Of a DNA stretch of 41,653 nucleotides, positions 431 through 27,600 are shown in pieces (the first letter of the stretch is position 1; every line of letters begins with the position of its first letter). The stretch comes from a virus. Location of the stretch: positions 1 to 41,653 of IMG/VR virus record IMGVR_UViG_3300004369_000039, one strand, 5' to 3'. The notes below the pieces were generated by a model. That model was not told the DNA's origin, did not search any database, and saw only the letters and a list, made by a program, of their open reading frames with translations. The position numbers and the translations under genes are program-made.

Positions 431-1264
431 ATGGTTAATGAACCGAACAACCCGTTATCAAAACATTTTAGGCAGCCTGCAATTTATTTAGATTTACCTA
501 GCAAAGGCCAGCATTGGTCTCCAGGATCTATAGACTTGCCCGAGTCAGGTCAAATTCCTGTATACTCAATGACTGTAAAAGATGAGATTACTATCAAGAC
601 GCCAGATGCGCTTATGAATGGCGAAGGCACTGTTAATGTAATACAAAGTTGCTTCCCTAGCATAAAGAATGCATGGAAAATTCCTGTTTGTGATCTCGAT
701 GCTATTCTCGTAGCAATGAGAATAGCCAGCTATGGGGATGAATTGACTCTTACATCACAGTGCAAACATTGCAACGAAACTAATGAACACGCTATAGACT
801 TGCGAGTGTTAATGGATACCATGACAGAACCTGTGTTCGACAGCATAGAAACTGCTGAGTTAGTAATAGAGTTTAAACCGCAACTTTTCGAAACGATTAA
901 TAACAGTAACTTGGCCAACTTCAAGACGCAAAGTCTACTACAAACAATCATGGCAAGTGACCTCACCGAGGAAGAAAAAACCAAAAGATTCAACCAGTTA
1001 TTGCCAGAAGTTACAGATCTAAATGTGTCTGTTATTGCTGACAGTATTAAAAGTATTACTGTTGAAGACACCGCTGTTACTAATCAAAAGCATATTTTAG
1101 ACTTCTTAAATAACTGTGATAGAAAAACATACGAGCAAATCAAAACACACGTAGAAAGTTTAGCACAACAAAATAAAATTAAACCATTTGATGTTGAGTG
1201 TGCAGGATGCGAAAAGCAGTACGAGACTTCAATGAGTTTTGAGTTTAGTAATTTTTTCGGCTAA
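431..1264 (+). CDS. 26: gp26-like baseplate hub / tail assembly protein
   Basis: This 277-residue protein resembles the T4 gp26 family of baseplate hub assembly proteins; T4 gp26 is about 208 residues. Two CxxC pairs, C111/C114 and C257/C260, could bind zinc, the second near the C-terminus. I chose ATG 431 because AGGA at 418-421 lies 9 nt upstream; the upstream TTG at 395 is inside the late promoter region. The last codons before the stop (TTT TTC GGC TAA) contain a T TTT TTC slippery heptamer, and the downstream small gene is in the -1 frame. A minority of ribosomes may therefore make a 352-residue gp26-gp51 fusion, as lambda G/GT does. The family call is fairly firm; the frameshift is inferred from sequence. 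Confidence 0.82.
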   Translation: MVNEPNNPLSKHFRQPAIYLDLPSKGQHWSPGSIDLPESGQIPVYSMTVKDEITIKTPDALMNGEGTVNVIQSCFPSIKNAWKIPVCDLDAILVAMRIASYGDELTLTSQCKHCNETNEHAIDLRVLMDTMTEPVFDSIETAELVIEFKPQLFETINNSNLANFKTQSLLQTIMASDLTEEEKTKRFNQLLPEVTDLNVSVIADSIKSITVEDTAVTNQKHILDFLNNCDRKTYEQIKTHVESLAQQNKIKPFDVECAGCEKQYETSMSFEFSNFFG

Positions 1265-1335
1265 GGCTTTTGACCATGTCGCAACCGGACATGTTAAAAT
1301 ATTTTGACCAACTAGAAAAAGAGTCAAAAGCCTTA
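1252..1335 (+). promoter_or_regulatory. Probable programmed -1 frameshift site with stimulatory stem-loop
   Basis: T TTT TTC (1252-1258) is in the gp26 frame, two codons before its stop. A -1 slip continues CGG CTA AGG CTT TTG ACC into the ATG of the next gene with no stop. Three nt downstream, TAAGGCTTTTGAC (1262-1274) pairs perfectly over 13 bp with GTCAAAAGCCTTA (1323-1335). Inside the loop, CATGTC (1275-1280) pairs with GACATG (1288-1293). The stem sequesters the ribosome-binding site (AAGG, 1263-1266), and the inner hairpin sequesters ATG 1276. The 3-nt spacer is shorter than the 5-9 nt usual for such elements, so partial melting of the stem base is assumed. Confidence 0.7.
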
Positions 1336-1488
1336 AAAGAAGAAATCCTTAAATTGTGTTGGTATATGCGGGGTAGTCTTTCTTACGACGAAGGAATGCA
1401 TTTGTCTTACGAAGATAGATCACTTATGTCTAAACTAATCAAAGAAAATCTAGAAACAACTAAAAAGTCAGGAATGCCATTCTTTTAA
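1276..1488 (+). CDS. 51: gp51-like tail/hub assembly chaperone, likely expressed partly as a gp26 fusion
   Basis: This is a small 70-residue helical protein with the pattern CWYMRG...S...LS..DR..M..LI.EN.E.TKKSG.P. It is similar to short proteins that follow gp26 in marine T4-like phages and occupy the position of T4 gene 51, the hub assembly catalyst. T4 gp51 itself is much longer (about 249 residues). ATG 1276 has AAGG 9 nt upstream, but both signals are paired in the predicted stem-loop, so free initiation should be weak. The -1 frame from gp26 enters it without a stop. By analogy to lambda G/GT, it would be the T-like part recruiting tail tube protein or tape measure. The numbering as gp51 is by position and general resemblance. 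Confidence 0.65.
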   Translation: MSQPDMLKYFDQLEKESKALKEEILKLCWYMRGSLSYDEGMHLSYEDRSLMSKLIKENLETTKKSGMPFF

Positions 1489-2360: not shown

Positions 2361-4130
2361 CTATGAAATTTCTACATCGTTATTGTATGAGGTGAAGCCA
2401 TTTTCTTTCACCACACTTAATACATTGTTAACACGCCCTGCTAGTTCATCTTTGTGTGATACTAACCACACACTGCGATTACCTTCACGTGCCATCTTTT
2501 TAAGTATTGCTAAACTATTTTCAACTCCGCTGGCATCCATACCAGTGTCAATTACTTCGTCGATAAACATTAAATTAATTTGTTGATATAAACTTTCCCA
2601 CACATCACGGAATGCCCAACTCATGCTTAGTATCAGCCTGTTGCGCTCACCCCTGCTTAAATTATCAAAGTCTAGTTCTCTACCCAGTTCCTCAATGCTT
2701 ACTGTTAAATCGTTATTAAACTGCACAGTATGCGGAAGTCCAATCCTGTCCAAGTACTGTATTAGTCTTGTGTTGAGATAAGTTAAGTTTTGATCAATAA
2801 TTCGTTTACGTATAAAACTGTCCTTGTTGGTTAACAGTTTTAACAAAAAGTCTTGATGTTCTTTTATGTTGGTAAGCGAGTTTATTTTAGCATAATCAAC
2901 TTCTTGTACTGCTTGTGTTTCCATTTCAGTAATCTGTTCTTCATAAGGATCAGATTCTGCTAATTTTGTTTCAAGTTGATTAGTTAAGTTTTCGATTGTG
3001 TTTTTATGATTGATTGCGTCTTCTTTTGAGTCGTAGAACACATTTGGGATTGGCCCCGGGTCGCCGAGCTCTGCAAGTTTGTCAACTTGAATCTGTACTT
3101 TTTCTTTACTTTCATTGTGTTGCTGTTCCGTTTCTGCTAGTGTTGCTCGTTTCTTTTCTAATACTTCCAAGTGCTTTTCGTCGTGTATTTCTTGCCCGCA
3201 TGCATAACACTCATGCTTTTCCAACTTGGCAATTTCTGCAGTCAAACTCGTAATATGTTTCTCTAATCGTGTACACTCTTGCTCTCCTGACGCACGCCAA
3301 CGACTTGCTTCGCTTATGTCTTTGGATACCGCACTGTGCTTATCCAGTACGTCGTGTGCAGACAGCTCTGCTTCAATGTCTATACTGTCCAAGTTTTCAA
3401 GAGCTTTGGCTAACTTATCAATTTCTTCTTGTTTTTTGTTTTTCCACAGTGTTTGTCTGCGACGTGTTGCTTCTACTTGCTCTTGCACACGCTCATTAGC
3501 TTGTTGTACTGCTTTAATACGATATTCTTCTTCTGTGATATCGTTTTTTGTTTGTTTGTTCTGTTCTTTGAGGGCATCAGCTTTCTCACTCAACATGGTA
3601 ATGCCCAGCAACTGCTCAATAATAGTGCGCTGATCGTTTGCACGTAGACTTAAGAAAGGCTCTGTGTAAGTGTTAAGTGCTACAATATGTTTAAACATAT
3701 CATGACTCATGTTCAACATACGCTCTATTTCTGCTTGTGTTTCCCTTGAATCACCTTGTGACTCATCTGTAATCTCTTGCTCTTGCCCACCAACATAAAA
3801 TGCCACAGTGTTTGGCTTACGTCCACGTTCGATCTTGTAGTCAACACCATTATTCTCAAACTCAATAGTAACCAACATGTTCTTATCATTGGTTTTGTTG
3901 ATTAAATTGTCTTTACGTATCTTGGTTAGTGCTTCGCCGTATAGTGCATAACTTAGCGCATTAATAATTGTAGTCTTGCCTGTACCATTACGTGCCCCAG
4001 TATCATCCCCACCTAAGTCTAAATTTTGACCCAATACAAGTGTTAAGTCCTTGCGGTTAAACTGCACAGCTTGGGTAGAGTTACCCACGCTCATAAAGTT
4101 TTTTACTGTAAGAGTTTTTACTTTAAACAT
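2361..4130 (-). CDS. 46: gp46 recombination endonuclease subunit (Rad50/SbcC-like ATPase)
   Basis: gp46 is the SMC-like ATPase partner of gp47. Together they resect DNA ends for recombination-dependent replication and host DNA breakdown. The 589 residues show Walker A GARNGTGKTT (45-54), long coiled-coil arms (about 180-300 and 320-460), a zinc hook CYAC (C308, C311), the ABC signature LSRGE (491-495), Walker B MFIDE (521-525) and an H-loop His at 559. Length is close to T4 gp46 (about 560). The ATG at 4130 overlaps the end of the upstream gene by 13 bp, so translation is probably coupled. All key ATPase residues are present. Confidence 0.96.
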   Translation of the reverse strand: MFKVKTLTVKNFMSVGNSTQAVQFNRKDLTLVLGQNLDLGGDDTGARNGTGKTTIINALSYALYGEALTKIRKDNLINKTNDKNMLVTIEFENNGVDYKIERGRKPNTVAFYVGGQEQEITDESQGDSRETQAEIERMLNMSHDMFKHIVALNTYTEPFLSLRANDQRTIIEQLLGITMLSEKADALKEQNKQTKNDITEEEYRIKAVQQANERVQEQVEATRRRQTLWKNKKQEEIDKLAKALENLDSIDIEAELSAHDVLDKHSAVSKDISEASRWRASGEQECTRLEKHITSLTAEIAKLEKHECYACGQEIHDEKHLEVLEKKRATLAETEQQHNESKEKVQIQVDKLAELGDPGPIPNVFYDSKEDAINHKNTIENLTNQLETKLAESDPYEEQITEMETQAVQEVDYAKINSLTNIKEHQDFLLKLLTNKDSFIRKRIIDQNLTYLNTRLIQYLDRIGLPHTVQFNNDLTVSIEELGRELDFDNLSRGERNRLILSMSWAFRDVWESLYQQINLMFIDEVIDTGMDASGVENSLAILKKMAREGNRSVWLVSHKDELAGRVNNVLSVVKENGFTSYNNDVEIS

Positions 4131-5516: not shown

Positions 5517-5937
5517 ATACCCAAGTCAAAGGTTGCACAAAGTTAAAGTAACGTCCTTGATCATTATCATAGGTTCCTGACTGCACTATATTGCAGTTTA
5601 GTATTTGCTGTACCGTAAAAAACAAATTTTCGCTATCTGTTTTATTGACAGTGTCGTATGTCAATGTAGTATCATTGCCTAATATAAAATAGCGATTTAT
5701 GCCCAAATAAAACGTTTTATACTTGGCTAACTGCTGTGTAAAATTAATGAAATCTGACAGTAAGCCTGGCTGATTAAACACTGCTACAGCATGTTTGCTA
5801 TTGATATCTAATGTTAATTTACTGGCAAATTCAGGATCATTGCCTATGTAATCAACAGCAGTGTCTTTATATAAGTCTAATATAATTTGATCTTGATCAC
5901 AGTTGCTGTTCCCTAGCTGTACAGTACGCCAACTCAT
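5503..5937 (-). CDS. Unknown protein following gp47
   Basis: This is a 144-residue protein without recognisable motifs, acidic overall, rich in Asn, Asp, Tyr and Phe, with no membrane segment. It starts (ATG 5937) within the last codons of gp47, overlapping it by 4 bp, and overlaps the next gene by 14 bp. The overlaps make it a real member of the operon. Nothing in the sequence reveals its role. Being placed between the two subunits of the Mre11/Rad50-like nuclease, it could be an accessory factor, but marine T4-like genomes commonly carry unrelated small genes here. Confidence 0.6.
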   Translation of the reverse strand: MSWRTVQLGNSNCDQDQIILDLYKDTAVDYIGNDPEFASKLTLDINSKHAVAVFNQPGLLSDFINFTQQLAKYKTFYLGINRYFILGNDTTLTYDTVNKTDSENLFFTVQQILNCNIVQSGTYDNDQGRYFNFVQPLTWVYATN

Positions 5938-6953
5938 AAGTTCCTGTAGATATCTAACAGCATGTTTGGACTATATTGTTCGCTGTTGATGTTTGTTAGT
6001 TGATCAGTAACAATAGTGTCTACACTTTCAAACTTAATGTTACCCTGTGTATCAAAACTTATATCGTCTGACACATGCTTTTGCGGAATAAGCGTGATCT
6101 CTCGTAACTTGTATTTGTCTACAAATTCTTCTTTGATAAATGTTGCTTCTTCATAACTGATCTCTACATCCAAATCAACACGCACATGCATGCCGGGTTG
6201 TAGTCTTGCTTCAGTGTGTTGTAGCAGGTCACTTAATTGATATACACGATAGCGTGGCTGATCTGGCCAACTAAAGTATTCTGGATCTTTACCCCAATCC
6301 AATACCATCATGCCACGTTGATCATCTGCGGCATCTGCATAGTTGTGTGGGAAGCAGTTGCCAATATAGTGTATGTTGCGTTGCACTTGACGTTTGTGGA
6401 AGTGTCCGGTGAACACCGTTTCGATACCACCAAATGCTTCTGCTTTGATTTCACCATGGTCAGGCATCTGCACCATAGCATTCATAAAGAAGTTGGGCAA
6501 CTCAAAGTGTCCGAACATGTACTTGCCTGAATACTTGGGCACACGTTTGTAGTCTTCGCCTACCATCCATGGTGCAAAGATAACATCGCCTTCCTGTAGC
6601 CAATCGTTCATGATATGCACGTTGGGCAAGTGTCTGGCCCATTCTACACTTTGCACATCACGCTTGTCTCTGTAGTACAAATCGTGATTGCCTGGAATAA
6701 AGAACACATGATCAAAGTTGTTGTTTAGATGCTCCAGTGCTTTGAGACTGTAGTTCAACGTAACAATATTGATACTGGCACGATTGTTATGCCAATCACC
6801 TGTAAAAATACAAGTTTCACATCCTTCTTCTTTGGCTTTAGCAGTAAACCATTTGATGAAGTTTAAACAGTCTTCATTGTGTTGAGTACTATTGCTTTTT
6901 AGCCCAAAGTGGATATCCGTGCATACCGCGGCTTTTTTAAATAGATTTGTCAT
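5934..6953 (-). CDS. 47: gp47 recombination endonuclease subunit (Mre11/SbcD-like)
   Basis: gp47 is the manganese-dependent phosphoesterase of the gp46/47 complex. The 339 residues carry all metallophosphatase motifs: DIH (D13, H15), GDWHNNR (D53), GNHD (N89, H90, D91), GHF (about H149) and GHFHK (H184, H186). Length matches T4 gp47 (about 340). No alternative start fits, because the first metal ligand is at residue 13. A near-perfect sigma70 promoter lies immediately upstream, with its predicted +1 at the A of the ATG. There is no ribosome-binding site, so the message is probably leaderless. It is the first gene of a six-gene minus-strand operon. Confidence 0.96.
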   Translation of the reverse strand: MTNLFKKAAVCTDIHFGLKSNSTQHNEDCLNFIKWFTAKAKEEGCETCIFTGDWHNNRASINIVTLNYSLKALEHLNNNFDHVFFIPGNHDLYYRDKRDVQSVEWARHLPNVHIMNDWLQEGDVIFAPWMVGEDYKRVPKYSGKYMFGHFELPNFFMNAMVQMPDHGEIKAEAFGGIETVFTGHFHKRQVQRNIHYIGNCFPHNYADAADDQRGMMVLDWGKDPEYFSWPDQPRYRVYQLSDLLQHTEARLQPGMHVRVDLDVEISYEEATFIKEEFVDKYKLREITLIPQKHVSDDISFDTQGNIKFESVDTIVTDQLTNINSEQYSPNMLLDIYRNL

Positions 6954-9177: not shown

Positions 9178-11901
9178 GTGGCAGATCTTCAAAACAGAAT
9201 TAATGAAATAGAGCAACGACTCAATCGAATAGATGGAAGAAGAGAGAGCCTAGAATCTCAGATTGAATTTAAAAATACAATCGGAGCTGACACTTTCTTT
9301 GATGAGAGAATCCTTAGAGATTTAAATAGGGAAGCAGAAGCTCTCAGCGCAGAACTTAATACGTTAAAAAATCAACAAGGCGAACAAAATCGCGCCAAGG
9401 GACAAACTGCTGAATCTAAAATAGAAAACACACAATCTGAACCGTTTGAAGGCGAAGGGGTACAAGCATTTCAAACAAACTCCGAACCTTTAACTGAAGA
9501 AGAAGAAAACAGAGCTGCTGGAGCAGTGTTTAACCCAGACGGTGAAGCAGTTGCGTTTGGCGCAGAGCGTCCAACTATAGCAAGCGAAGACGATGAGTAT
9601 GTAATACCGGGTCTACAAGGGGGAGCTAGTAGTAACTTCATAACCACAGCAGGCCAGCAAACTAATTTAGATGGTGATCCCACCAGACAACAAAATGCAC
9701 TAGCACACGAAGCGGCAGTATCCCGAGACAACGCACTGTTTACAAATGTTCTGCATGATTATGCAAGTAGCACATACAGAATTAGCCTATATCTGTTAAC
9801 CAAAGATCAGTATAACGGAATGATCGAAAACCCGGGTAGTTTTGTACCTAAAAACTTGTTAGTGCAAAGTGGCGGCGGAGAACTGAACAATAGGCATCCT
9901 GATTTTAAAACAGTATTCGGCATTGACAACTTTAAGATGTATACTGTGGTTGGTTTAAATGCTAATTCCAGAGCAAGTAACACACTTACATTTAACTTTG
10001 ATATCATCGAGCCATATGGCATGACACTACTGGATAGATTAATTAGTGCAAATTTTAGTACGGGTAGTGAAAATTATTTAGAACAACCATACTTACTACA
10101 GATTGACTTTCTTGGCAATGCAAGCGACTCGGATAACGATAATTTTAATATTTCTACTAAGCGTATTCCTATTAGATTTTTAAATATGAAAATTACACCA
10201 GGTGAAGGCAATACTGTTTATAAAATTAGTTCTATTGCATATAATCATCTGGCTTTCCAACAGACTGTTGCAACTGTGCCTACAGTAATGTCTATTAATG
10301 CAAGTACTATTGGAGAATTTTTTGATAACGAAAACGCTCAAGAAGACGGTGACGAAGTAAACAGTTTCCCAGCAACCATGAATGAATTTTACAGGAGTGT
10401 TAGTGGTGACGAGAAAAAGTTTAAATTTCCTCAATTGAAAATAAAATTTAACATTGATCCGTTATTTGCTGACAGCAAGATAGTTAATCCTTTAATAGCA
10501 GAGACGACAAAGATTCCCATGAATGCTAAGGAGGCAACACAAAGTGTGTCATGGGGGCAGACATCGATTCCTAAGGCTAGATCGGAACAAACTTTTAATA
10601 TAAATGCAGGATCCAATATTATTAGTGTAATCGACAGGATAATGCAAAAAAGTGACTACATTACAAGTCAAGTAAAAGAGTTTAATGCTAGAAGGGAAGC
10701 AGGAGACAATCTTGACGAGTTTAAGTTCCTTGACTGGTATAAGATTATACCAGATGTTAAATTAAATCAATACGACAATGGACTTGCTCAGGCGTATGCA
10801 AAGGAAATTACATATAACATTGTTCCTTATCGTACAGCAAATACACGCCATCCTGACTTTGCTAAGACGAGAATTTCAAAAGACAATATTGTAAGAACCT
10901 ACAACTATAGATACACAGGCAAGAATACTGATGTTATTGATCTTGACATAAACTTTGATACTGCATTTTTTACTTCACAAACTGCTTTCTTAAAAAACAG
11001 AGCCGGAGCCGCTTTTACAAAGCGTAACCCAGAGTCTTATGTAGGCGAGAACAAAATAAACGATCAGGGAAATGGACTACAGGATCTCCCTAACCCAATT
11101 GTTTCTCAAAACAGGAATGCAGAATACGAAGGCCAAGTAAACAGAGTTGATGATTTTAAGAGTGTTACTGTAAGTGATTTGGCAAAAAGCATATACACCA
11201 GTTCTGCTGGGGATATGCTTAACATACAAATGCGTATCATTGGCGACCCTGCATTTATCAAACAAGATGATATGTTTTTTAATCCGTCTCGTGGAGGCTA
11301 CGATGAATTCAAGCAAGGCATAGCAACAGATCTTCCCATAAACAATACAGGACAAATAGTATTTGACACTAATCAAGTTTATGTGCAGTTATTGGTTAAA
11401 AGTGCTACAGATATAGACGACACTACTGGCATAGTGGACCCAAATAAAGCTGATACACTGTCTACAGGATACAAGTTAGATTCTACGTTCAGCGGAGTAT
11501 ATCAAGTGCTTACTGTCGAAAGCTCCCTCTCACAAGGACAGTTTGAACAAAATCTGCAAATTATAAAAATTCCCAATGCCCTTTCTGATGCAGTTGAAAA
11601 CACTGATGTCACTGATGCTACTAATAATATATCTTTTATTACCGCCAATGATACAAATCAAAATGCTGTAACAGCTCCGGTACAACAACCTGTTAATGTT
11701 TTAGGCATAGCCGGTAACGATATCACCGCATTAGTACAAGCAAGTAACAGTCCTAACCAGGGTGTGTTTCCTATAGTTAACGGAGAAGGCGTTACAGACC
11801 AGTCACAGCAGGTAATAGACGCCTCACCGGCCAACATAAACAACACAACTGTAGAAATACAACAAAACCCACCTTTTAGTAATCCTGCAGGAATCGCATA
11901 A
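9178..11901 (+). CDS. Large baseplate hub protein in the gp27 position
   Basis: This is a 907-residue virion protein. The start is GTG 9178, supported by TAGGGG 8 nt upstream. Residues 1-75 form a coiled coil (NRINEIEQRLNRI and later LRDLNREAEALSAEL), then an acidic linker to about 165. The central part (about 180-400) has phage hub-like strands, such as TYRISLYLLTKDQY and FNFDIIEPYGMTLLDRL. The region near 830 (SGVYQVLTVESSLSQGQFEQ) resembles closing strands of hub proteins that read VYxVxxVxSxFxxGxFxQ. Its place just before gp5 suggests it does the job of T4 gp27 (391 residues), which trimerises under gp5. The C-terminus is polar and Asn/Gln-rich. The family number is inferred; the structural-protein call is solid. 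Confidence 0.68.
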   Translation: MADLQNRINEIEQRLNRIDGRRESLESQIEFKNTIGADTFFDERILRDLNREAEALSAELNTLKNQQGEQNRAKGQTAESKIENTQSEPFEGEGVQAFQTNSEPLTEEEENRAAGAVFNPDGEAVAFGAERPTIASEDDEYVIPGLQGGASSNFITTAGQQTNLDGDPTRQQNALAHEAAVSRDNALFTNVLHDYASSTYRISLYLLTKDQYNGMIENPGSFVPKNLLVQSGGGELNNRHPDFKTVFGIDNFKMYTVVGLNANSRASNTLTFNFDIIEPYGMTLLDRLISANFSTGSENYLEQPYLLQIDFLGNASDSDNDNFNISTKRIPIRFLNMKITPGEGNTVYKISSIAYNHLAFQQTVATVPTVMSINASTIGEFFDNENAQEDGDEVNSFPATMNEFYRSVSGDEKKFKFPQLKIKFNIDPLFADSKIVNPLIAETTKIPMNAKEATQSVSWGQTSIPKARSEQTFNINAGSNIISVIDRIMQKSDYITSQVKEFNARREAGDNLDEFKFLDWYKIIPDVKLNQYDNGLAQAYAKEITYNIVPYRTANTRHPDFAKTRISKDNIVRTYNYRYTGKNTDVIDLDINFDTAFFTSQTAFLKNRAGAAFTKRNPESYVGENKINDQGNGLQDLPNPIVSQNRNAEYEGQVNRVDDFKSVTVSDLAKSIYTSSAGDMLNIQMRIIGDPAFIKQDDMFFNPSRGGYDEFKQGIATDLPINNTGQIVFDTNQVYVQLLVKSATDIDDTTGIVDPNKADTLSTGYKLDSTFSGVYQVLTVESSLSQGQFEQNLQIIKIPNALSDAVENTDVTDATNNISFITANDTNQNAVTAPVQQPVNVLGIAGNDITALVQASNSPNQGVFPIVNGEGVTDQSQQVIDASPANINNTTVEIQQNPPFSNPAGIA

Positions 11902-13394
11902 TGGCAAATTCAACAAATAGAAGAAATATCAATAAAAGTTACGATAAACGTATTGCTTCGGGTATCGTAATAGATTCTGGACCTTATATAGGAATCGTTA
12001 AAAATAATGTAGACCCTGCGAGACTGGGTAGACTAGAAGTTTACATTCCGGATTTAGCCGGACTAGTTGATGGTCCCAATGTACCGATTACAGTAACCTA
12101 TGCAAGTCCTTTTGGCGGGTCAACTAAAGGCATACCGTCACCTGACAAGTTCTTTTCATATGAACAGCAAACTTACGGGTTCTGGGCAGTTCCTCCCGAT
12201 TTAGACAATCAAGTATTGGTTACGTTTGTAGCAGGTGATATCAGTAGAGGATATTGGTTTGCGTGTGTCCCCAATGCCGATTCAAGACACATGTTGCCGG
12301 GCATTAGTAGACTAAAAAATGATAAAACAATATTCGAAGGTAGCGGGCTTGAAGGCAGGGGATTAAAGGACGGAGACGTTTACTTGCCTACCAGTGAGGT
12401 TAATTTAAACTCTAAAGAGAAACAACAAGATGGAAACATGTTGAATTTGGACAGAATAGCCCATCAGATACAAGCCGAAGTGGTATTACAGCAAGGCTTA
12501 GAAACAGATCCTGTCCGCGGAACTATTACAAGTAGTAGCCAACGAGAATCACCCAGCAGGGTGTTTGGTTTAAGTACACCAGGAAGACCATATCCCGACA
12601 TTGCAAAAACCGCCGAGTCAAAGCAAGCAATCGACGAGCTTTTAAATAACCCAGACATTACTATTCAAAATAGTCAGATTAACAATCCGCAAGGACGATC
12701 GGGTGGACACACACTGGTTATGGATGACGGTGATGTGTATGGCGATAACGATCTAGTAAGGTTGCGCACCGCTGGCGGGCATACCATATTGATGCATGAC
12801 ACAGAAAACATCATCTATATAACCAACAAAGACGGAACAGCATATGTTGAACTGACTCCAAATGGTGCAGTAAATGTATACAGTGCTAAAACTGTAAGTG
12901 TACGTAGTGAGTTGGATATTAACCTGCATGCTGATGCAAATGTAAATATACAAGCAGGAGACAGTATCAACTGTTTTGCAGAAAAGAACATAGAAGTACA
13001 AACACAACAAAAGCGTGAACGTGTTGCTAACGAGCATTTGATGGATGCTGGTAGGTATGACTTGAGAGTAGGCGGTCAAATAAAGATCAAGTCAGGCACA
13101 ACTAGTGGATGGACAGTTGGCCAAGGAGAACTATGGTTAACTGGCACACAGGTACATTTGAACACGTCAGGCAAAGCCGTTGACGTTCCTAATCGTGTGG
13201 CATCGTTGGAACAGTACAAAAAACAAGATGTTAAGTTTGATGCAGGAACTAAACGATGGGTAATTGATGAAGCCAGTACACTCGACAGCATAGCAACCTT
13301 TACCCCGACACACGAACCATGGTCTAGAGAAACTGGCCCTTTGCAAAAAAATAACGGCACTTCGACGCCTAGTAAAAAACAACAGGATATATAA
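11901..13394 (+). CDS. 5: gp5-like central spike/hub protein lacking the lysozyme domain
   Basis: This 497-residue protein has an OB-fold N-terminal domain (about 18-130: GIVIDSGPYIGIVKNN, ARLGRLEVYIPDLAG, VLVTFVAGDISRGYW) like T4 gp5. It has a beta-helix needle (about 255-420) with Vgr-like strands (GGHTLVMDDG, GGHTILMHDTENIIYI, ELTPNGAVNVYSAKTV, NINLHADANVNIQAG). T4 gp5 carries a lysozyme domain between these parts; here the linker (130-255) shows no lysozyme motifs. The next gene may supply that activity. The ATG overlaps the preceding stop (TAATG) with CAGGA 8 nt upstream. Confidence 0.85.
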   Translation: MANSTNRRNINKSYDKRIASGIVIDSGPYIGIVKNNVDPARLGRLEVYIPDLAGLVDGPNVPITVTYASPFGGSTKGIPSPDKFFSYEQQTYGFWAVPPDLDNQVLVTFVAGDISRGYWFACVPNADSRHMLPGISRLKNDKTIFEGSGLEGRGLKDGDVYLPTSEVNLNSKEKQQDGNMLNLDRIAHQIQAEVVLQQGLETDPVRGTITSSSQRESPSRVFGLSTPGRPYPDIAKTAESKQAIDELLNNPDITIQNSQINNPQGRSGGHTLVMDDGDVYGDNDLVRLRTAGGHTILMHDTENIIYITNKDGTAYVELTPNGAVNVYSAKTVSVRSELDINLHADANVNIQAGDSINCFAEKNIEVQTQQKRERVANEHLMDAGRYDLRVGGQIKIKSGTTSGWTVGQGELWLTGTQVHLNTSGKAVDVPNRVASLEQYKKQDVKFDAGTKRWVIDEASTLDSIATFTPTHEPWSRETGPLQKNNGTSTPSKKQQDI

Positions 13395-14905
13395 TGGCTA
13401 TTCCAGATCAAGGCATAATTGTAGCCAAACAAACTCCAAGGACCAATCAATTGGCCCAAAGGAGCATTTTAAACTTGCCCAGTGCTGGCAGGGGATTTGA
13501 AATAGAAAGTATAAAACCTGGCATTCCGGGCTTGCGTAGAAGCAGTGTCAAAGCATTAATGACGCAGATTGCATTCATGGAAACAGGAAACGATCTTGCT
13601 TACAGCGTAGGCCCTAGATTTGGCAGATACGCTGTGCATATCAAGACTCTAATCAACTATGGCTATATCATCGAGAATGGCGAAGTGTGGACGAACAAAG
13701 ATGGTATAGATTCGATTGCAACTTTTCTAAGTAATCAAGCAGTGCAAGACAGCATAATGGAAAGATATTTAACTGAACAGTACAAAGCATGTATTGACGC
13801 AGGAGTAATAGAAGTAGGCGATACCGGTGATGTTATTTGCGGTATCCTTGCTGTGGCATATCAGTTCCAAGATCATATATCCACCTATCGCACCAGTTTT
13901 ACCATACCCGACGAAGTGTATATTACTGCTAATGTTTCTCGAGTGAGTAATGTTGCGTTTATAAACACGTACCCTGCTACACACAGTTTTGGTTCAGGAA
14001 GAACTGTTAATGTGGATACAGATTTAGGTAAATCCAACCTAGCTAATGTGCTACTTACTTCACTTAACGGAGTAAAAACTGTTGGTAATGTAATAAACTT
14101 ATATGAATTTGATTACAGTGACCAACAAGAAGGCAATGCAAACATTGCTGTTACAGTAGACACAGGAACTGTTACCAGTTCGGCACAATATCCTGTTAGC
14201 AGTATTGGTAGCGCAAATCAATCACTAAGTGACGTGTCTCCAACAGGATTAAGAACACTGTTTGTGCAAGGACTACCGGTACAGGTGTCTGGTGCTGGAA
14301 CATATAATGGTATCTATGAAATACACACCATGACAGATACAACCAACAACAGCACCTTTAGATTAGGCAAAGCAATTACCAGTAACATTGCAACAGGCAC
14401 AGTATCAAGATTGCGCAACACAGACCTAAGTTACATCATTGCACGTACATCAAATCTTGCTATACAATTAGCAAACACACTAAGTTACTTGGGCAGTGCT
14501 GACACAGCATACCAACACTACGTTGACAGTGGCATTGCTGACATTGCTGACAAGTTCACAATAACATCTACTACACCTATCAACGAACGAAAGTTATACT
14601 CAACCGTTGAAGACTTAACTAATGTTGCAATAAAAACAACACAGGTTGTACAAAGTGCGTTGTTTAGCAACGTTGAAGGATTAGCAAAACTTAGAGCTAT
14701 AGACTCAGCAGGAGCAAATATTAATATTCTCGATTCGAGATTAACTAACGTCTATACATCAGTTATAACTTCCAAGGTTAAAGAATGGAAACAAAACGCA
14801 GATGTTGTAGTAGACGGTCAAGGTAGACCAGGATCGCTATTTTATAATGCTGGCAAATATGCTTTTAATACACTAGGCTCAGGGGTAGTTATTTCTAACG
14901 GTTAA
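13394..14905 (+). CDS. Virion structural protein with lysozyme-like N-terminal domain
   Basis: In this 503-residue protein, residues 50-160 read like a small muramidase/transglycosylase domain. ALMTQIAFMETGND places a candidate catalytic Glu at 63, followed by GPRFGRYAVHIKTLINYGYI, NKDGIDSIATFLSNQAVQD, and ILAVAYQFQD (helix). Such METGND...GPRFG...Q patterns are typical of lysozyme-like domains tuned to the baseplate. The remainder (170-503) is beta-rich and helical structural sequence. Adjacent to a gp5 without lysozyme, it is a candidate for local cell-wall digestion during infection (inference). The one-base start/stop overlap with gp5 and AGGA upstream support the start. Activity is not proven; the domain could be structural only. 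Confidence 0.6.
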   Translation: MAIPDQGIIVAKQTPRTNQLAQRSILNLPSAGRGFEIESIKPGIPGLRRSSVKALMTQIAFMETGNDLAYSVGPRFGRYAVHIKTLINYGYIIENGEVWTNKDGIDSIATFLSNQAVQDSIMERYLTEQYKACIDAGVIEVGDTGDVICGILAVAYQFQDHISTYRTSFTIPDEVYITANVSRVSNVAFINTYPATHSFGSGRTVNVDTDLGKSNLANVLLTSLNGVKTVGNVINLYEFDYSDQQEGNANIAVTVDTGTVTSSAQYPVSSIGSANQSLSDVSPTGLRTLFVQGLPVQVSGAGTYNGIYEIHTMTDTTNNSTFRLGKAITSNIATGTVSRLRNTDLSYIIARTSNLAIQLANTLSYLGSADTAYQHYVDSGIADIADKFTITSTTPINERKLYSTVEDLTNVAIKTTQVVQSALFSNVEGLAKLRAIDSAGANINILDSRLTNVYTSVITSKVKEWKQNADVVVDGQGRPGSLFYNAGKYAFNTLGSGVVISNG

Positions 14906-18655: not shown

Positions 18656-21600
18656 ATGGCAGCATTCAAAACTCATCAGTTTTTACCTGACGTTTTTCAA
18701 ACTGATACTAACAAAAAGTTTTTAAACGCTACAGTTGATCAGTTACTTAGTGAGCCACAACTTAAACAGGTCAATGGCTACATTGGTAGAAAATTAGCAC
18801 CTTCTTATAAAGCAAACGACAGTTATGTATCTGAGCCAACAGCGTCAAGAGCAGACTATCAGCTAGAACCAGGTGTAGTAATAAAAGACCAACTGACTAA
18901 AAAAGTAGATTATGCAACAACTTATGTAGACATTGTTAATAAAATTGGATACGAAGGTGGTATTACTGATAACCACAATAGACTGTTTGACAATGAATTT
19001 TATTCTTATGACCCTAGAATTAGTTTTGACAAGTTTGTTAACTTTAGTCAGTATTATTGGTTAAGCCTGGGTCCAAATCCTATACAAATTACCAGCACTG
19101 GCGTAAGTACTCGGCAAACATTTACAGTAACATACAATCCTGTTAACAATGCTTACGAATTCACAGGTAATGATAACGTGCCTAACCCAAGTATTACGCT
19201 GGCACGTGGCGGAGTGTACGAATTTGTAATTAACAATCCAGGAAATAACTTTTGGATTCAAGGCAAGCCAGGCACAGATGGTATAGACCCCGATCAAAGC
19301 AACGTAGAAACTAGAGATGTACTTGGTGTTGCAAACAACGGAACAGATTCCGGAACGGTGACTTTTACAGTCCCTAGTGCAACAGCACAAGATCAGTACA
19401 CAAGTTTTCCGACTGTAGAGTCAGTTAGTTATGCTACTGATTTAGCATTTAATCAAGTGCAAGGTGCAAAGCCACAAGACTTGATTGACACATACGGTGG
19501 TATTGACGGCCCTGTTGCATACCTAGATGGTGCAACAGTTGTTTTTGTAAATAGAGCGTACATTGACGATAGTTTTTGGATAGATGTTGCTAGAACAGAA
19601 AACGGAATTGTTTACCTAGATCAGAGTGTACAGATTCCACTTGCTGACAGGACTAACGTTTATACAGTTTCAATACAGCCAGACGCAGAAGGCAATGACA
19701 GAATTTTATTATTACCTAAAATTGCTGTTCCTGAAGACCACAAAGTACGAATAACAGGCGGCGCAACGTATGCAAGCAAACAATGGTTTGTTAGAAATTC
19801 AGTGTACGAACTTGTTCCTTACATTACAGCACCACTTGCAAATTTATACTATCAGAATCAAGCTGATTCAGCCGCAAGTGGTATCATAAACCTAGTTGAT
19901 CTCGATGTTGATACTATAGATCCCAGTACAGATATACTAGGAGAACTTAATTATACAAGCCCTAATGGTGTAGTATTCACAAACGGTTTAAAAGTTAATT
20001 TTGATTCTACAGTACCAGCAAGTTGGCAAAACAAGAACTACTATGTTGAGGGTGTGGGCACAGGTATAAGACTAGTGCCAGAGAATGAACTTATCAGTAT
20101 AGAAACACTGAACAACAGTTTTGTTACAGCAGGCGGTTTAAACTACCAAGTTGATGATCGAGTTACCATCCAAGGTGGTACCTTTACTACTGCGGCAGTA
20201 GCAGTTGTTGATAGCATAACTCAAGATACTGCCGTGTTGTCAGCAACTATAGATCCTACTTCGGGCTCAGTTACAGCAGTTACCATTATAGACGGCGGTA
20301 GCGGTTACTTGGCAACACCAACATTGACTTTTGCCGCTCCTGCCAGCGGAAGTTTAGCCAGTGCCACAGCAACAATAACCAACGGTGTTGTTACAGCAAT
20401 TACACTAGCGAGTGGCGGTAGTGGTTATGAATCTAATCCTGTGATTACAGTTACAGCTCCAGAATCTGGACCTATCAAAACATTCAAGATTAAAGAACGG
20501 GGAAACTACACAGTCTTACCTACCAATCCTGTTAGTGTTACAGGCGGATCAGGATCAGGCGCAAGTTTTGAAGTGTATCTGCAACCAGAGTTTCCTGATT
20601 ATATTACAATTAATAGATCCAGTTTAGATAGAAATGCATGGAGTCGCGGCAATAGATGGGTCCACATAGATGTAATAGAAAAAACAGCAGGCTATCTTGA
20701 TCAAGAAGTATTACTTAATCAGACACAACGTGCCAGCAGACCTATCATAGAATTTGAAGCAGATTATCAATTATACAACAATGGAGCGGTTGCCAAGCTA
20801 CCTGTTGATATATTAGATACAACTATTACTCGTGCATTCCAGCAGATCCAAGGTGTAGTGTCAGTTGATACAACAGTGTTTACTGTAGGAACACTTACTC
20901 TTACAACTGGCGATAGGGTTGTATTTGCAAACGACCAAGACAATAATGTAAGAAACAAGATTTACAACTTCACAATCGAAAAAGCAGTAGACGATCCAAG
21001 TGACGTTTACAAAGCATACCTAGTTGAAGCAGATGATGCAACTGTTGTGGATAATAATACTGTGCTGGCACTGTCGGGTGCAAATGGTGGCAAGGGATGG
21101 CACTACAATGGCACAAGCTGGACAATAGCACAAGAAAAAACAGCAAACAATCAAGAACCCTTATTTGACGTAGTTGATAGTACAGGTATAAGTTATGCCG
21201 ATGCAAGTACATATACTGGTACAACGTTTACCGGATCTAAAGTAATTTCCTATAAGCGAGGAACAGGCACCAACGATACGGTACTAGGCTTCCCTTTAAG
21301 TTATAAAAACTTTGCAAATCAAGGTGATATTGAATTTGAGAACACGTTTGATTCTCAAACATTCACATACTTAACAGGCGATACTAATGTCGTAACTACA
21401 CAAAAAGTCAATGCTGGTTACTTGCAGAAAAATGCATCAACCACAACTTGTAGTAGAGAAAACATTTGGCAAATTGCGAGAAACTTTAGTAAACAATTTA
21501 AGATCTACGATTTTATTTACGACGGTGTTACTAACTTATTCCCGATTGATCATCTTCCTGATGTAAGCACAGATTTCCCACATATTAAAGTTTATGTGAA

Positions 21601-24600
21601 TAATGAAATTCTAAGTGTAGGTAATTTTGCAACTACAAAAGTTGTGGATAAATTTGCCGTATTGGTTAATCCCGATCTTATTACAAAAAATGATGCAGTA
21701 TTTGTTGCCATCTTTAACCAAGATGTACCTGTAACAGCCAACGCACATTACGAAGTTCCTATTAACTTAGATATTAATACGTTAAATAAAAATCTGTCTA
21801 CGGTTACACTAGGGCAGATGCGAAATCATCTAACTGAGTTGAAGAACAACAGTCTCAACGTTGTCGGTAGTGTTCCGGGTAGCAGTAATCTTAGAGACAT
21901 TGAGTATAAAAATACATCTGGAAGTATACTACAACACAGTGCACCTGCTGTTTATGCAGGACTGTTCTTAAATCATCCAACAATGGATGCTGTTAACGCC
22001 ATTAAGTTAGCCAATAGAGAGTATTCAAAATTTAAAAAGAACTTCCTAGAAGTTGCAGGTAAAATTGATTTAGATTTAAATGACGCACAAGCTAGTTTTG
22101 ATACAGTGCTTCTACAGATGCACAGCATTAAGAACGAAAGTTTCCCGTGGTACCACAGTGATATGATACCACACGGTGATGAGAACAGAACTGCGATACC
22201 TACCTATACTGTGATTGATCCAGACATTGTATCTTATGAAATCACAAGTATATTTAATGATACCCAACCAAACAATAAATCTGTTTTGGTTTATGTGACC
22301 AGGACCATAGACAATGTAACAACAAAGTCGTTGGTAATAAAAGGCAGGGATTATACTTTTAATACTGATCGTGCCGCAATTACTTTTACAAGTAATTTTA
22401 AATTATTATTTAATGATCTAATAGACATCGTAGAGTACAGTGATACAGATGGAAGTTTTATTCCTGAAACTCCTACTAAGATGGGTATGTATCCAAAGTT
22501 TATTCCTGAGAAGTATTTGGACAACACACTACGTACACCAGTTAATGTTATCCAAGGACATGACGGAAGCATTACACCTGCATTCAATGACTTTAGAGAT
22601 GACTTGTTGTTAGAACTAGAACGTAGAATTTACAATAATATTAAAGTTACCTACGATACCAATACCTTTGACATTATTGACTACATGCCTGGCAAGTTTA
22701 GAGATACTGACTATACCAGAGCAGAATTTACTCAAATTCTTAGTCAAGGATTTTTAGCATGGGTAGGTACAAACAGAGTTGACTTTTCGACAAACAGTTA
22801 CTTTAGTGCAAGCGATCCATTTACTTGGAACTACAAAGCATTTAGAGATGTAGTCAACGGCGAAACTTTACCGGGTACCTGGAGAAGCATTTATAGGTAT
22901 TTTTACGACACTGATAGACCACATACACATCCATGGGAGATGTTAGGCTTCAGTGAGAAACCAGATTACTGGGATACTAGATATGGTGTTTCTCCGTACA
23001 CAGGCGGAAACAGCACATTATGGAGTGATTTAAGTGTAGGGTACATACATAGCGGCACAAGACAAGGTATCGATCTACGCTATCAAAGACCAAACCTAAG
23101 TCAGTTTATACCTGTTGACGACAACGGTAATTTGCGTAGTCCGGAGCAAATACTAGTTACTGATTTCGATGGTAGTCGAGCCAATATAAGTTATGCAGTT
23201 GGAGATATAGGCCCTGTTGAACTTGCATGGAGACGCAGTAGTGAATATCCATTTGCGTTGATGTTGGCACTGGCGTTGGCAAAACCTGCAAGATTCTTTG
23301 GATTGCAGGCAAATGTACATAGGTACAATAGAAACAGTTTTACAGGCCAGTTTGAGACAACTGGCACTAGTCAGCACATAACTCCTACATCTCTACATGT
23401 TAACGGCTATGTGGATGCAAACAGTGCAACACAACGCACTGCTGGATATCTTAACTGGATCAAGGATTATATAACCAATCTAGGTGCTGGGTCCGCATCA
23501 TCGGTGGTAGTTGACAATCTGTCAAAACTTAACGTACAACTGGTACACAAAGTAGCAGGTTACACAGATAAAAAGTTTGTTGAATTACTCGCAGAACAAG
23601 TAAGTCCTAGCAGTATCAATAACAGTGTTGTTATTCCTGACGACAACTATGCTTTAAAAATATACAAAGGTAGTCCCGTTAGAAAGATTGAATATAGTGC
23701 TGTAATTGTACAAAAAAGTGCTAACGGTTATACAGTTAGCGGTTACAATACTACGAATCCGTTCTTTACTATTATTCCTAGTGAACCCAACAACAATGCA
23801 TATAGCATTGAAGAAAGTGGTGTTCGTGCTGTAATATTCAGAGACTTCAAAAAACAAAAAATTACAATACCTTACGGTTTTGAATTTAACAGTGTACAGC
23901 AAGTAACAGACTTCCTAGTAGGATATCAAAGATTCCTACAAAGTCAAGGATTTATTTTTGTAGACAACGAAGACGCTCTTAAACAACAAAAAGATTTCGT
24001 ATTAAGTGTTAGAGAATTTGTCCACTGGACAACACAAGGATGGAAGGTTAACAGTGTTCTTGTCCTGAGTCCAGTCAGTGATACAGTAAAGGTATTTGAA
24101 CAAACAGCTATTGTAGACGAAATTAAGAATGCACCGTTTGATAGTAGAGTACTTGACTTAAACTTTAAACCGATTAGTAAAAATGAATTTTCAGTATATA
24201 GGGAGGATAACCTATTTACGTTCCAATCTAATACACAAAAGTCAGTGGGTTTTGCTGAGCTAAACTTAGTGCAAACAGAACACCTACTGATACTGGACAA
24301 CGTTACTGAATTCAACGACGTTATCTACGTTCCAGAGTTAGGTAATAGACAATATAGATTAAAGTTCGTTGGATACAAAACAGACTCTTGGAGTGGTAGT
24401 TTAGAACTGCCAGGGTTCATGTTTAGTAGTGATAACATTGACGTATGGAGCGGTGGAACTGACTACCTCAAAGGGTCTATAGTCCAGCACAAAAATAGGT
24501 ATTACACAGCATTACAGAACATAACTGCTGACCCTAATTTCCAAACTACTAAGTGGAAGCAGTTTGAAAAATCAGAACTACAAAGCGGAATGCTAAGAAA

Positions 24601-27600
24601 CCTTGCATCAAATGCACAACTTGGCGCTAGTTTCTACGACATAGACAACCAACCTGCAAACGAAGAAATACAGTTATTCAGTGATGGTATTACTGGCTTT
24701 AGAGAAAGACAGTACTTCACTGACTTGGGCATAGATGTTACTACCCAGTCAAAGTATTACCAAGGATTGATTACACAAAAAGGCACACCTAACTCTATTA
24801 ACGCACTAGAAGGTGGAACATTTGGAAATTTAGACACAGACATTGACTGGTATGAGAACTGGGCATTCCGTATAGGTGAATACGGATCGTTAGACACTAA
24901 TGCGTTTGTGGAAACAACTCTAAGCGACACAGCAATCACAAACAATCCTACACTTGTGCAGTATACAGACAGCAATAATATTGCGCAACAAGGTACCGTG
25001 GCATTAACTGAAAATGACATCTATAAGATATCCGGCACTTATAACGCAAACGTATTTGTAACAGAGGATCGTACACAGTTTCCGAAACTACGTCCTTTAC
25101 CAGTGGCAGGATTTGTAAATTTAGCAGACGTAGATACCACACTGTTTAATTTAAACAATTACGATTCATTATCTTCTTTAATTGACCTAATAGGAACAGG
25201 GTACAAGATTTGGGTAGCAAAAGATTTCAACAACACGTGGAATGTGTTTAGAGCTACTTATATAGATGGTTTAGTATTCATCCTGCGAGATCTAGATGAA
25301 GGGTCTGCAGAAGTTGTGTTTAATGAAAACCACGGGTTGGCAGTTAACGATGTAGTGGTTATTAAAAACTTTGACGACAGATTTAATGGCGCATACAAAG
25401 TAGACAGTGTTATTGATACAACTAGATTTACTATTACTATTACAAGAAACCTAGACGAACTACAAGAAGAAGCAGTAGTTAGTGGATCGGGATTGTTGTA
25501 TAGATTGTCCAGTGCTAAAATAAGTAACCCTGTTGACATACAAAGTGTTATGCCAGTCAGTGGATGGCTAGAGAATGACAAGGTATGGGTAGAAAATTTA
25601 GATGCTAACGGTAACTGGGGTGTGTACAACAAAACCAGTCCGTGGGTTTATAACAGCAAAGCAGAACTAGATCCCAGTAAACTATCTGGCAATGATAATT
25701 TTGGACAAACAATTAGCATAGAGCCCAATCTTGCTCAATTGATGTATGTTGGTTCGCCAGGATCAGGCGAGGGTAGAGTTAATGCATTTACTAGATCCGT
25801 TACTAATTCTTGGACGGCGAGTTTTGCTTTGAGTGCAAACAGCACAGGACTAGACAGCTTCGGACACAAAGTAGTAAATGCGCAAGGATATGTTGCAGTC
25901 AGCGCACCAGACAGTTCAAGTGGAAAAGGATATGTTTACATCTTTAAAGATGGTATCATACAACAAATATTAACTGATTCATCTGGTAGCCCGAGTGACT
26001 TGTTTGGATCTAGTTTAGCAATCAGCAGAGATGCAAACTATTTGTATATTGGAGCAAGCGGTGCAGATAAAGTTTTCTGTTACCAATTGAATCTGAGAAC
26101 AGCAGTTGATCCAGTTCTTTTACCAGTCGAACGATATAATCTAACACTAGATGCCAATGTTAGTGTTGCTGTGGATGATGCAATAACATACCAGAGTCCA
26201 GGTACAACATCAACCGCAAGTGGTACAGTTGTGTTTGACAGCACAAGAGATTTAGCAGATACTAATGTTGTTGTTGTTACAGGAAACGTTGCGGCGTTTA
26301 CTGACACAGACTTAATCGCAATCAATGGAGCCAATGTGGCGGCAAATATTGTGTCCGACACACAAGCGGTTGCTACTGACACATTTAGTAACGTATCAAT
26401 ACTAACAAGCGATGCTACAGAAGTTGTTGTGTACTCACAGTTACGTGCAGTAGAGTATGTACCGACTATTGAGTACAGTGTAAGTGGTGAAACAATAACT
26501 TTTGTAACACCACCTGCAACTAATGAAGTCATACAGGTATTCAAGCGTGGCAGTTACTATACAAATTTAACTACTATAAATGGAAACGCCAGTACAAACT
26601 TCGGGTCAAGTCTTGCTACAAATGCAGGCGGTAGCGTACTTACTGTCGGAAGTGACACAGCAGTTGTGGGAACACAGGGTAACGAAGGCTTGTTGTATGC
26701 GTATCATAGGACAATTACAGAGTTTACCACAGACGGTACGTCGTCGTCGTTCACTGCCCCAGACGTTTTTGCTAATGACTACAGAGTATTATTGAATGGC
26801 GTAGAGTTAATAGAGGACAGTGATTATTATGTAATTGCACCGAGTACTGTACAGTTTCCAGATATCCAAACAGCAGGACAAACTTTAAGAGTCGAAACCA
26901 ACAACTTCGTACAAGATCAAATTATTCCTCCTAGTACAACAGGAGTTAACGGTCAGAGATTCGGAACTGATATCCAGTTATGCGGCACTGGTTGTAATCT
27001 ATACGGAAGTGCGCCATCCTACTTCGCAAATCAATATAGCTCAGGAGCAGTTTACAGATTAGTAAACGTAGGAAGAGTTTATGGTAACGTAACAGGTACT
27101 GTAAGTAATGCCACAGTCACTTCGGGTGATAGTATCGTTATTAACGATAGGCCAGTAGAGTTTACCGGAACTACTATAACAGACGTAGCCAATGACATTA
27201 ATGCAACAAGTATTCCGGGTGTTACTGCAAGTAACGCTCTGGTGTTTATCAGTAACGTAACGTCAGGGGAAGTTGAAAGTCATTGGAGATTACAAATTAC
27301 AAGTAATGTACAAGTTGCTACAGAAAAACTTAACATTACCTCAGGCAGTACAGGTACCGGTTTAACTGATCTTGGAATAGAAATATACAAGCACACGCAA
27401 GTTATAACACATCCCAATGACATTGGAGAAAAGTTTGGTACTGCAATAGGTATAAGTCAAAGCGTGGGCAAGTTAGCAGTATCTAGTGAAGGTGCAGATA
27501 CTACAACACCTACTACTTTCGACGTAGCTGAAACAGTAACAACATTTGATACTCTGTCTACCACGTTTGTTAAGATAGTTAAAGACTCTGGCGCAGTATA

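Follow-up and report, generated by a model that had tools for sequence, protein, structure and literature searches.

The junction between a gp26-like gene and the small open reading frame (ORF) behind it, in the viral DNA analysed here (IMG/VR record IMGVR_UViG_3300004369_000039, positions 1 to 41,653; the whole stretch of 41,653 nucleotides is hereafter the window), probably carries a programmed −1 ribosomal frameshift signal of the lambda G/GT tail-assembly-chaperone type, a reading to which we give a probability of about 0.92 on comparative sequence evidence. The original prediction of such a lambda G/GT-like frameshift is supported because an in-phase slippery heptamer is followed by an open −1 frame under selection and by a stem that covaries in relatives, and because few alternative starts are available to the small ORF. 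Re-reading of the window sequence also showed that the heptamer, its phase and the stem had been placed correctly to the base (Table 1).

The gp26 frame of the window ends in ...AAT TTT TTC GGC TAA, with an X_XXY_YYZ heptamer in the zero frame, and the −1 frame reads CGG CTA AGG CTT TTG ACC ATG and onward to a stop ending at 1488. Counted from the sequence, the predicted fusion comprises 276 + 76 = 352 residues. All 13 bp of the stem are paired, its core starts 6 nt past the heptamer, and five of the six pairs of the inner hairpin are present in one predicted MFE structure. Positions 1252–1345 fold with an MFE of −28.3 kcal/mol (z −5.1), and 0 of 200 shuffles reached a value as low.

Table 1. 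Parts of the candidate frameshift junction in the window
Feature	Position	Strand	Basis
gp26-like gene, zero-frame short product, putative TAC-N	431..1264	+	PF12322 and phrog_150 matches
Slippery heptamer T_TTT_TTC	1252..1258	+	in-phase conservation
Zero-frame stop TAA of the short product	1262..1264	+	
Putative stimulatory stem, 5' arm	1262..1274 (conserved core 1265-1274)	+	folding, covariation
Putative stimulatory stem, 3' arm	1323..1335	+	folding, covariation
Inner 6-bp hairpin, 5' arm (holds the internal ATG)	1275..1280	+	read from sequence; folding prediction
Inner 6-bp hairpin, 3' arm	1288..1293	+	read from sequence; folding prediction
Putative TAC-C (T-like domain) encoded in the −1 frame, 76 residues beyond the slip site	1258..1488	+	open, selected frame
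Possible internal start: AAGG, then ATG 1276-1278, within the stem-loop	1262..1278	+	

Ribosomes reaching the end of the gp26-like gene would stall at the hairpin, whose core lies 6 nt beyond T_TTT_TTC, and a minority of them would slip one base back, bypass the stop and append a helical domain of 76 residues. Two forms, which the sequence predicts to arise from one start by frameshifting as in the G/GT type, would then cooperate as tail assembly chaperones: a short one (TAC-N, like gpG) and a rarer long one (TAC-NC, like gpGT). We infer the slippage itself, its frequency and the role of the products as tail chaperones.

IMG/VR was searched for relatives with the small ORF (the best 80 of 529 kept) and with the gp26-like protein (22), which gave 102 loci, many of them near-identical and four of them repeat fetches of the same contigs (L081–L084, same contigs as L001–L004), which were dropped. 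Among the named phages, 10 of the 63 records matched by the gp26-like protein were examined. Removal of duplicates from 108 loci including the window yielded 82 distinct junctions in 66 clusters, which comprise IMG/VR loci, nine named jumbo phages and the window, with L112–L114 standing outside them. A cyanophage-like set of 80 loci, one of which ran off its contig, was reduced to 63 by merging identical junctions; L158, where a contig end cuts the locus, was excluded from the folding z, the cyanophage −1-frame and the start and SD counts.

Heptamer and phase proved to be kept across the relatives whose alignment had been proposed as a check: each of the 102 IMG/VR loci has T_TTT_TTC in the phase needed for slipping, the 66 clusters carry the heptamer without exception (65 TTTTTTC, 1 TTTTTTT), and TTTTTTN is in phase at 63 of 63 cyanophage-like junctions (60 TTTTTTC, 2 TTTTTTA, 1 TTTTTTG). 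Nine of the ten named phage records combine an in-phase T-run heptamer with an open −1 frame (eight with TTTTTTC, XacN1 with TTTTTTT), and the tenth, the weakly matching Microcystis phage Mel-JY01, carries the small ORF in the +1 (or −2) frame. The argument that such a coincidence exceeds chance holds up well, heptamer and phase being found in 66/66 clusters versus an in-phase X_XXY_YYZ of any kind in the last 10 codons of 100/487 ORFs of at least 100 codons from the same 66 loci, a control in which the sites themselves are counted. No SD-like 4-mer occurs within 18 nt upstream of the heptamer in 65 of the 66 clusters.

The −1 frame is open for 72–81 codons in all 66 clusters, extending beyond the zero-frame stop, and sequence comparison indicates that it is under selection directly after the heptamer. 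Its codon 3 encodes Arg in 63 clusters and its codon 7 Leu in 59. Across the 34 clusters in which one zero-frame codon separates heptamer and stop, the mean pairwise identity of codons 5–8 is 0.59 in the −1 frame, whereas the remaining frames give 0.30 and 0.22, and stops occur there in 0 of the 34 clusters in the −1 frame versus 17 and 6 in the others. This conservation upstream of the ATG argues against the small ORF being a separate gene that starts from ATG 1276 with its own AAGG, its start gated by the stem through translational coupling and the heptamer incidental. The window and five clusters related to it do have an ATG behind AAGG or GAGG within the stem, which makes separate initiation possible in the window itself, and annotators assign a separate small gene in several relatives (most of the jumbo genomes examined; it is unannotated in PA5oct and RaK2). 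However, 21 of the 66 clusters have no ATG, GTG or TTG within the first 20 −1-frame codons, PA5oct has no start codon in the first 45 and RaK2 none before codon 33. A start codon with an SD-like sequence in the first 20 codons is found in only 7/66 clusters, six of them the window's clade, when all starts and a one-base-longer search window are allowed, and in 0/45 when the first start codon only is considered; the heptamer is kept even where such a start is missing. We therefore regard a separate gene as improbable. The original prediction that the stem covers an internal ribosome-binding site and ATG applies to the six clusters of the window's clade and to one further cluster among the 66, and not to the family as a general conserved feature.

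RNA folding also points to the predicted ribosomal frameshift. The 75-nt segment starting right after the heptamer marks the minimum of the folding profile, with a mean z of −1.97 and 30 of 66 clusters below −2; segments starting 45–195 nt upstream average −0.25 to +0.15, and those starting 15–150 nt downstream −0.80 (overlapping) to +0.02. Shuffles that preserve the −1 frame protein gave a mean z of −2.22 after the heptamer (36/66 below −2) and of −0.34 over the next 75 nt (4/66 below −2). The putative stimulatory structure downstream is thus conserved, while being absent or weak in some relatives: the L015 and RaK2 junctions fold no better than shuffled sequence, and the effect is small at the 62 usable cyanophage-like junctions (mean z −1.07 versus −0.65 in a control window).

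A helix of at least 7 bp starting at columns 9–20 was found in 53 of 66 clusters by a scan without a null, and begins 6 nt after the heptamer in 23 of them, 3 nt in 14 and 5 nt in 7. Stimulatory structures usually lie about 5–9 nt downstream of the slippery site. The best helix falls in register 57 in 19 clusters, 95 in 15 and 88 in 10 (44/66 combined), the predicted 5' arm staying directly behind the heptamer and the predicted 3' arm occupying one of three coding sites in the −1 ORF; L104 and L106–L111, with shifted or other pairings, belong to none of the three covariation classes. The part conserved among the 15 clusters with the window's register is the core, columns 14–23, and two of the three outer pairs are unpaired in 4/15 and 7/15 clusters, respectively. 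A stem starting 3 nt downstream, as first described, is exact for the window, and the conserved core starts 6 nt after the heptamer.

The compensatory changes that had been suggested as a check were found in all three pairing registers. Double-sided changes occur in 4, 5 and 3 pairs and were matched by 1, 4 and 43 of 500 shuffles, further pair types were matched by 1, 79 and 82 of 500, and the covariation score of each class was reached neither by any of the 500 shuffles nor by any slid version, in classes that were assigned by best helix, so that the percentage paired is itself selected, and whose kinship lets sequences beat column shuffles. As the classes were defined by their helix and relatedness inflates shuffle tests of this kind, the case for the stem is built jointly on the folding profile, the controls with slid sequences and the pairs changed on both sides.

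T-runs can make RNA polymerase slip, although six T is short for this. Moreover, TTTTTTC recurs in 65/66 clusters, always in the phase that tandem slippage requires but slippage of RNA polymerase would not, and the covarying stem lies at ribosomal spacing downstream in many relatives. We accordingly consider it very unlikely that transcriptional slippage on the T6 run (polymerase slippage is treated in sections of a review, PMC5009743), and not the ribosome, reaches the second frame.

Codon choice at the heptamer is tightly restricted. The codon preceding the Phe-Phe (FF) pair ends in T in 66/66 clusters and encodes Asn, Ser, Asp, His, Arg, Thr, Ala or Tyr, residues for which the T-ending share elsewhere in these genes is about 29–69% (Asn 724/1169, Ser 590/1223, Asp 907/1319). 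FF is encoded by TTT TTC at the junction in 65/66 clusters and by TTTTTC elsewhere in the same genes in 9/24 cases; both Phe are among the 8 invariant columns of 344 in an alignment of 39 proteins, and T4 gp26, which lacks the frameshift, uses TTC TTT at the equivalent pair. That FF is retained for the chaperone C-terminus, the remainder being chance and AT-rich sequence, finds a parallel in T4 gp26, with FF near its C-terminus yet no frameshift signal, and is hardly credible when codon choice is (nearly) fixed over a run of three codons, even in the third base of the variable residue that precedes FF, and both the −1 frame and the folding behind the heptamer are selected.

The gp26-like protein matches PF12322 (T4_baseplate) at 61.5 bits, above the cut-off of 24.5, and phrog_150 (baseplate hub) with E 3.9e-19, and a BFVD structure search yielded phage baseplate hub proteins. 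The AlphaFold2 model of the small domain (1276–1485) is all-helical with a pLDDT of 94.7. Foldseek against the PDB returned nothing at E <= 0.001 for the small domain, nor among the best 50 of 232 matches of the gp26-like model, and PDB sequence searches with both families returned nothing below E 0.2. The gp26-like model aligned with the HK97 tail assembly chaperone 2ob9 (Z 5.4, rmsd 3.6, 88/107 residues), which ranked 20, tied with unrelated rows in the fold comparison; among solved structures, no tail chaperone was distinguished by its fold. PMC3004832 counts T4 gp26 and gp51 among the hub assembly chaperones, and the AM101 record names gp26/gp51 tape measure protein assembly chaperones; we infer the tail chaperone function of the products from this family.

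The chaperone gene of the window is flanked by a divergent ORF cut by the edge and by a GIY-YIG gene, and family matching revealed no adjacent tape measure gene. The divergent ORF (1–375, − strand) has no significant family match and showed no similarity to the divergent neighbours in five named jumbo phages (best E 2.1). The divergent neighbour in RaK2 bears the note 'similar to phiFL4A gp48 tail tape measure protein' and is a virion structural protein in PHROGs, and the annotated order in the distant relatives immuto and SP-15 is tube, gp26, small ORF, tape measure.

Several other features of the window are recorded here in their own right. A SegE-like GIY-YIG endonuclease adjoins SbcC- and SbcD-like (gp46/gp47-type) genes (1910–2332, 2361–4130 and 5934–6953, all on the − strand), and an ORF of 4716 aa (18656–32806) lies between baseplate-hub-like (11901–14905) and tail-fibre-like genes (from 33517). 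On the strand opposite to the frameshift gene and downstream of it, positions 1782–1915 (−) match the Polynucleobacter-1 RNA (Rfam RF01718) at 94.6 bits. A search of loci from 20 relatives found the same RNA in 10, some of which are close kin of one another (L002, L003, L008, L013, L027, L069, L074, L086, L087 and L090), which suggests that the Polynucleobacter-1 family is at least partly a phage RNA.

Cyanophage gp26 and the adjacent ORF annotated 'baseplate hub assembly catalyst' (Kyanoviridae, S-CAM8 and IMG/VR relatives) share heptamer, phase and position with the window, but their C domain belongs to another, T4-like type of sequence (hhalign 0.1% against the window family), and their stem signal is weak. 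The −1 frame is open well beyond the stop in 62/63 cyanophage-like junctions, the remaining one being cut by a contig end. Heptamer and −1 frame are both present in S-CAM8 and in Vibrio phage Bakedbeans, a search for relatives of whose gp26 found none. Cygsa01 has a −1 frame ORF without the heptamer, and for immuto, SP-15 and RM378 the frame of the small ORF is +1 (or −2). These last three (L119 ~3235, L120 ~3232 and L121 ~3175) and Mel-JY01 (L112, 3734–3970) are candidates for a +1 or −2 frameshift, Mel-JY01 and RM378 with a T7 run. S-SCSM1 (L116, ~3187) has an in-phase heptamer with the small ORF in the +1 frame, from a sequencing error or another mechanism.

An in-phase heptamer was sought at the end of the gp26 gene in T4, phiAS4 and AM101, and none was found. 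T4 gp26 and gp51 (Straboviridae) both match PF12322, in common with the window protein, but they are encoded by separate, divergent genes. The 70-aa ORF of the window was rejected as T4 gp51, which is a 249-aa gp26 paralogue with a C-terminal extension. This extension matches the cyanophage small ORF with an hhalign probability of 98.7% (two non-Straboviridae added) or 95.8% (Straboviridae alone), and gave 52.8% with the small ORF of seven jumbo phages and 9.5% with that of the window family, the reversed controls reaching up to 3.7%. The description of the small gene as 'gp51-like' is loose: the gene matches the T4 gp51 extension by position, but it is not T4 gp51, and the similarity of the window family is weak. 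T4 appears to carry as two genes the short and long forms for which its relatives use the frameshift.

The −1 frameshift of the lambda G/GT tail assembly chaperones and their relatives was reportedly described by Levin in 1993 and by Xu in 2004, and chaperone genes of T4-like phages are said to have been published already by Vladimirov in 2022. The lambda heptamer is G_GGA_AAG. The window resembles lambda G/GT in its short product, an in-phase heptamer just before the stop, an overlapping −1 ORF with a second small domain and wide conservation, and differs in its heptamer, T_TTT_TTC, in the covarying downstream stem of its family and in that no tape measure gene was found adjoining it. According to a review (PMC5009743), long-tailed phages 'except T4' share a conserved G-T frameshift. 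Citing Vladimirov 2022, PMC12846349 notes that TAC-N genes in T4-like phages have poly-T signals for frameshifting, and an excerpt of PMC10885494, also citing Vladimirov 2022, states that short and long fused chaperone genes replace frameshifting in some T4-like phages. The TAC locus of Pseudomonas phage Adele and the Vandenendeviridae likewise has a poly-T −1 signal ending the TAC-N gene but an invariant GTTTTT motif, and the available portion of PMC12846349 mentions no stem. A literature search, covering papers in part, turned up none that describes frameshifting from gp26 into the small ORF. New here are the comparative evidence and the rewired stem; such frameshifts are already known in phages.

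Tentatively, and with the odds somewhat against it, the stem may have been rewired at least twice (registers 57, 95 and 88, with the 5' arm fixed), and the hairpin of the window's clade, by also hiding an internal start, could set the levels of the long chaperone and of a separate C domain alike. As to the direction of change between the T4 two-gene and the frameshift arrangement, the same proposal would make T4 genes 26 and 51 a derived, frameshift-free replacement of an ancestral single-gene system.

Our data suggest that the frameshift signal is retained in most of the examined cyanophage-like and jumbo phages that have PF12322-type genes, and that T4 and the two other Straboviridae examined are the exception among their wider relatives. 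The small ORF should probably be annotated as part of a joined product with the gp26-like gene.
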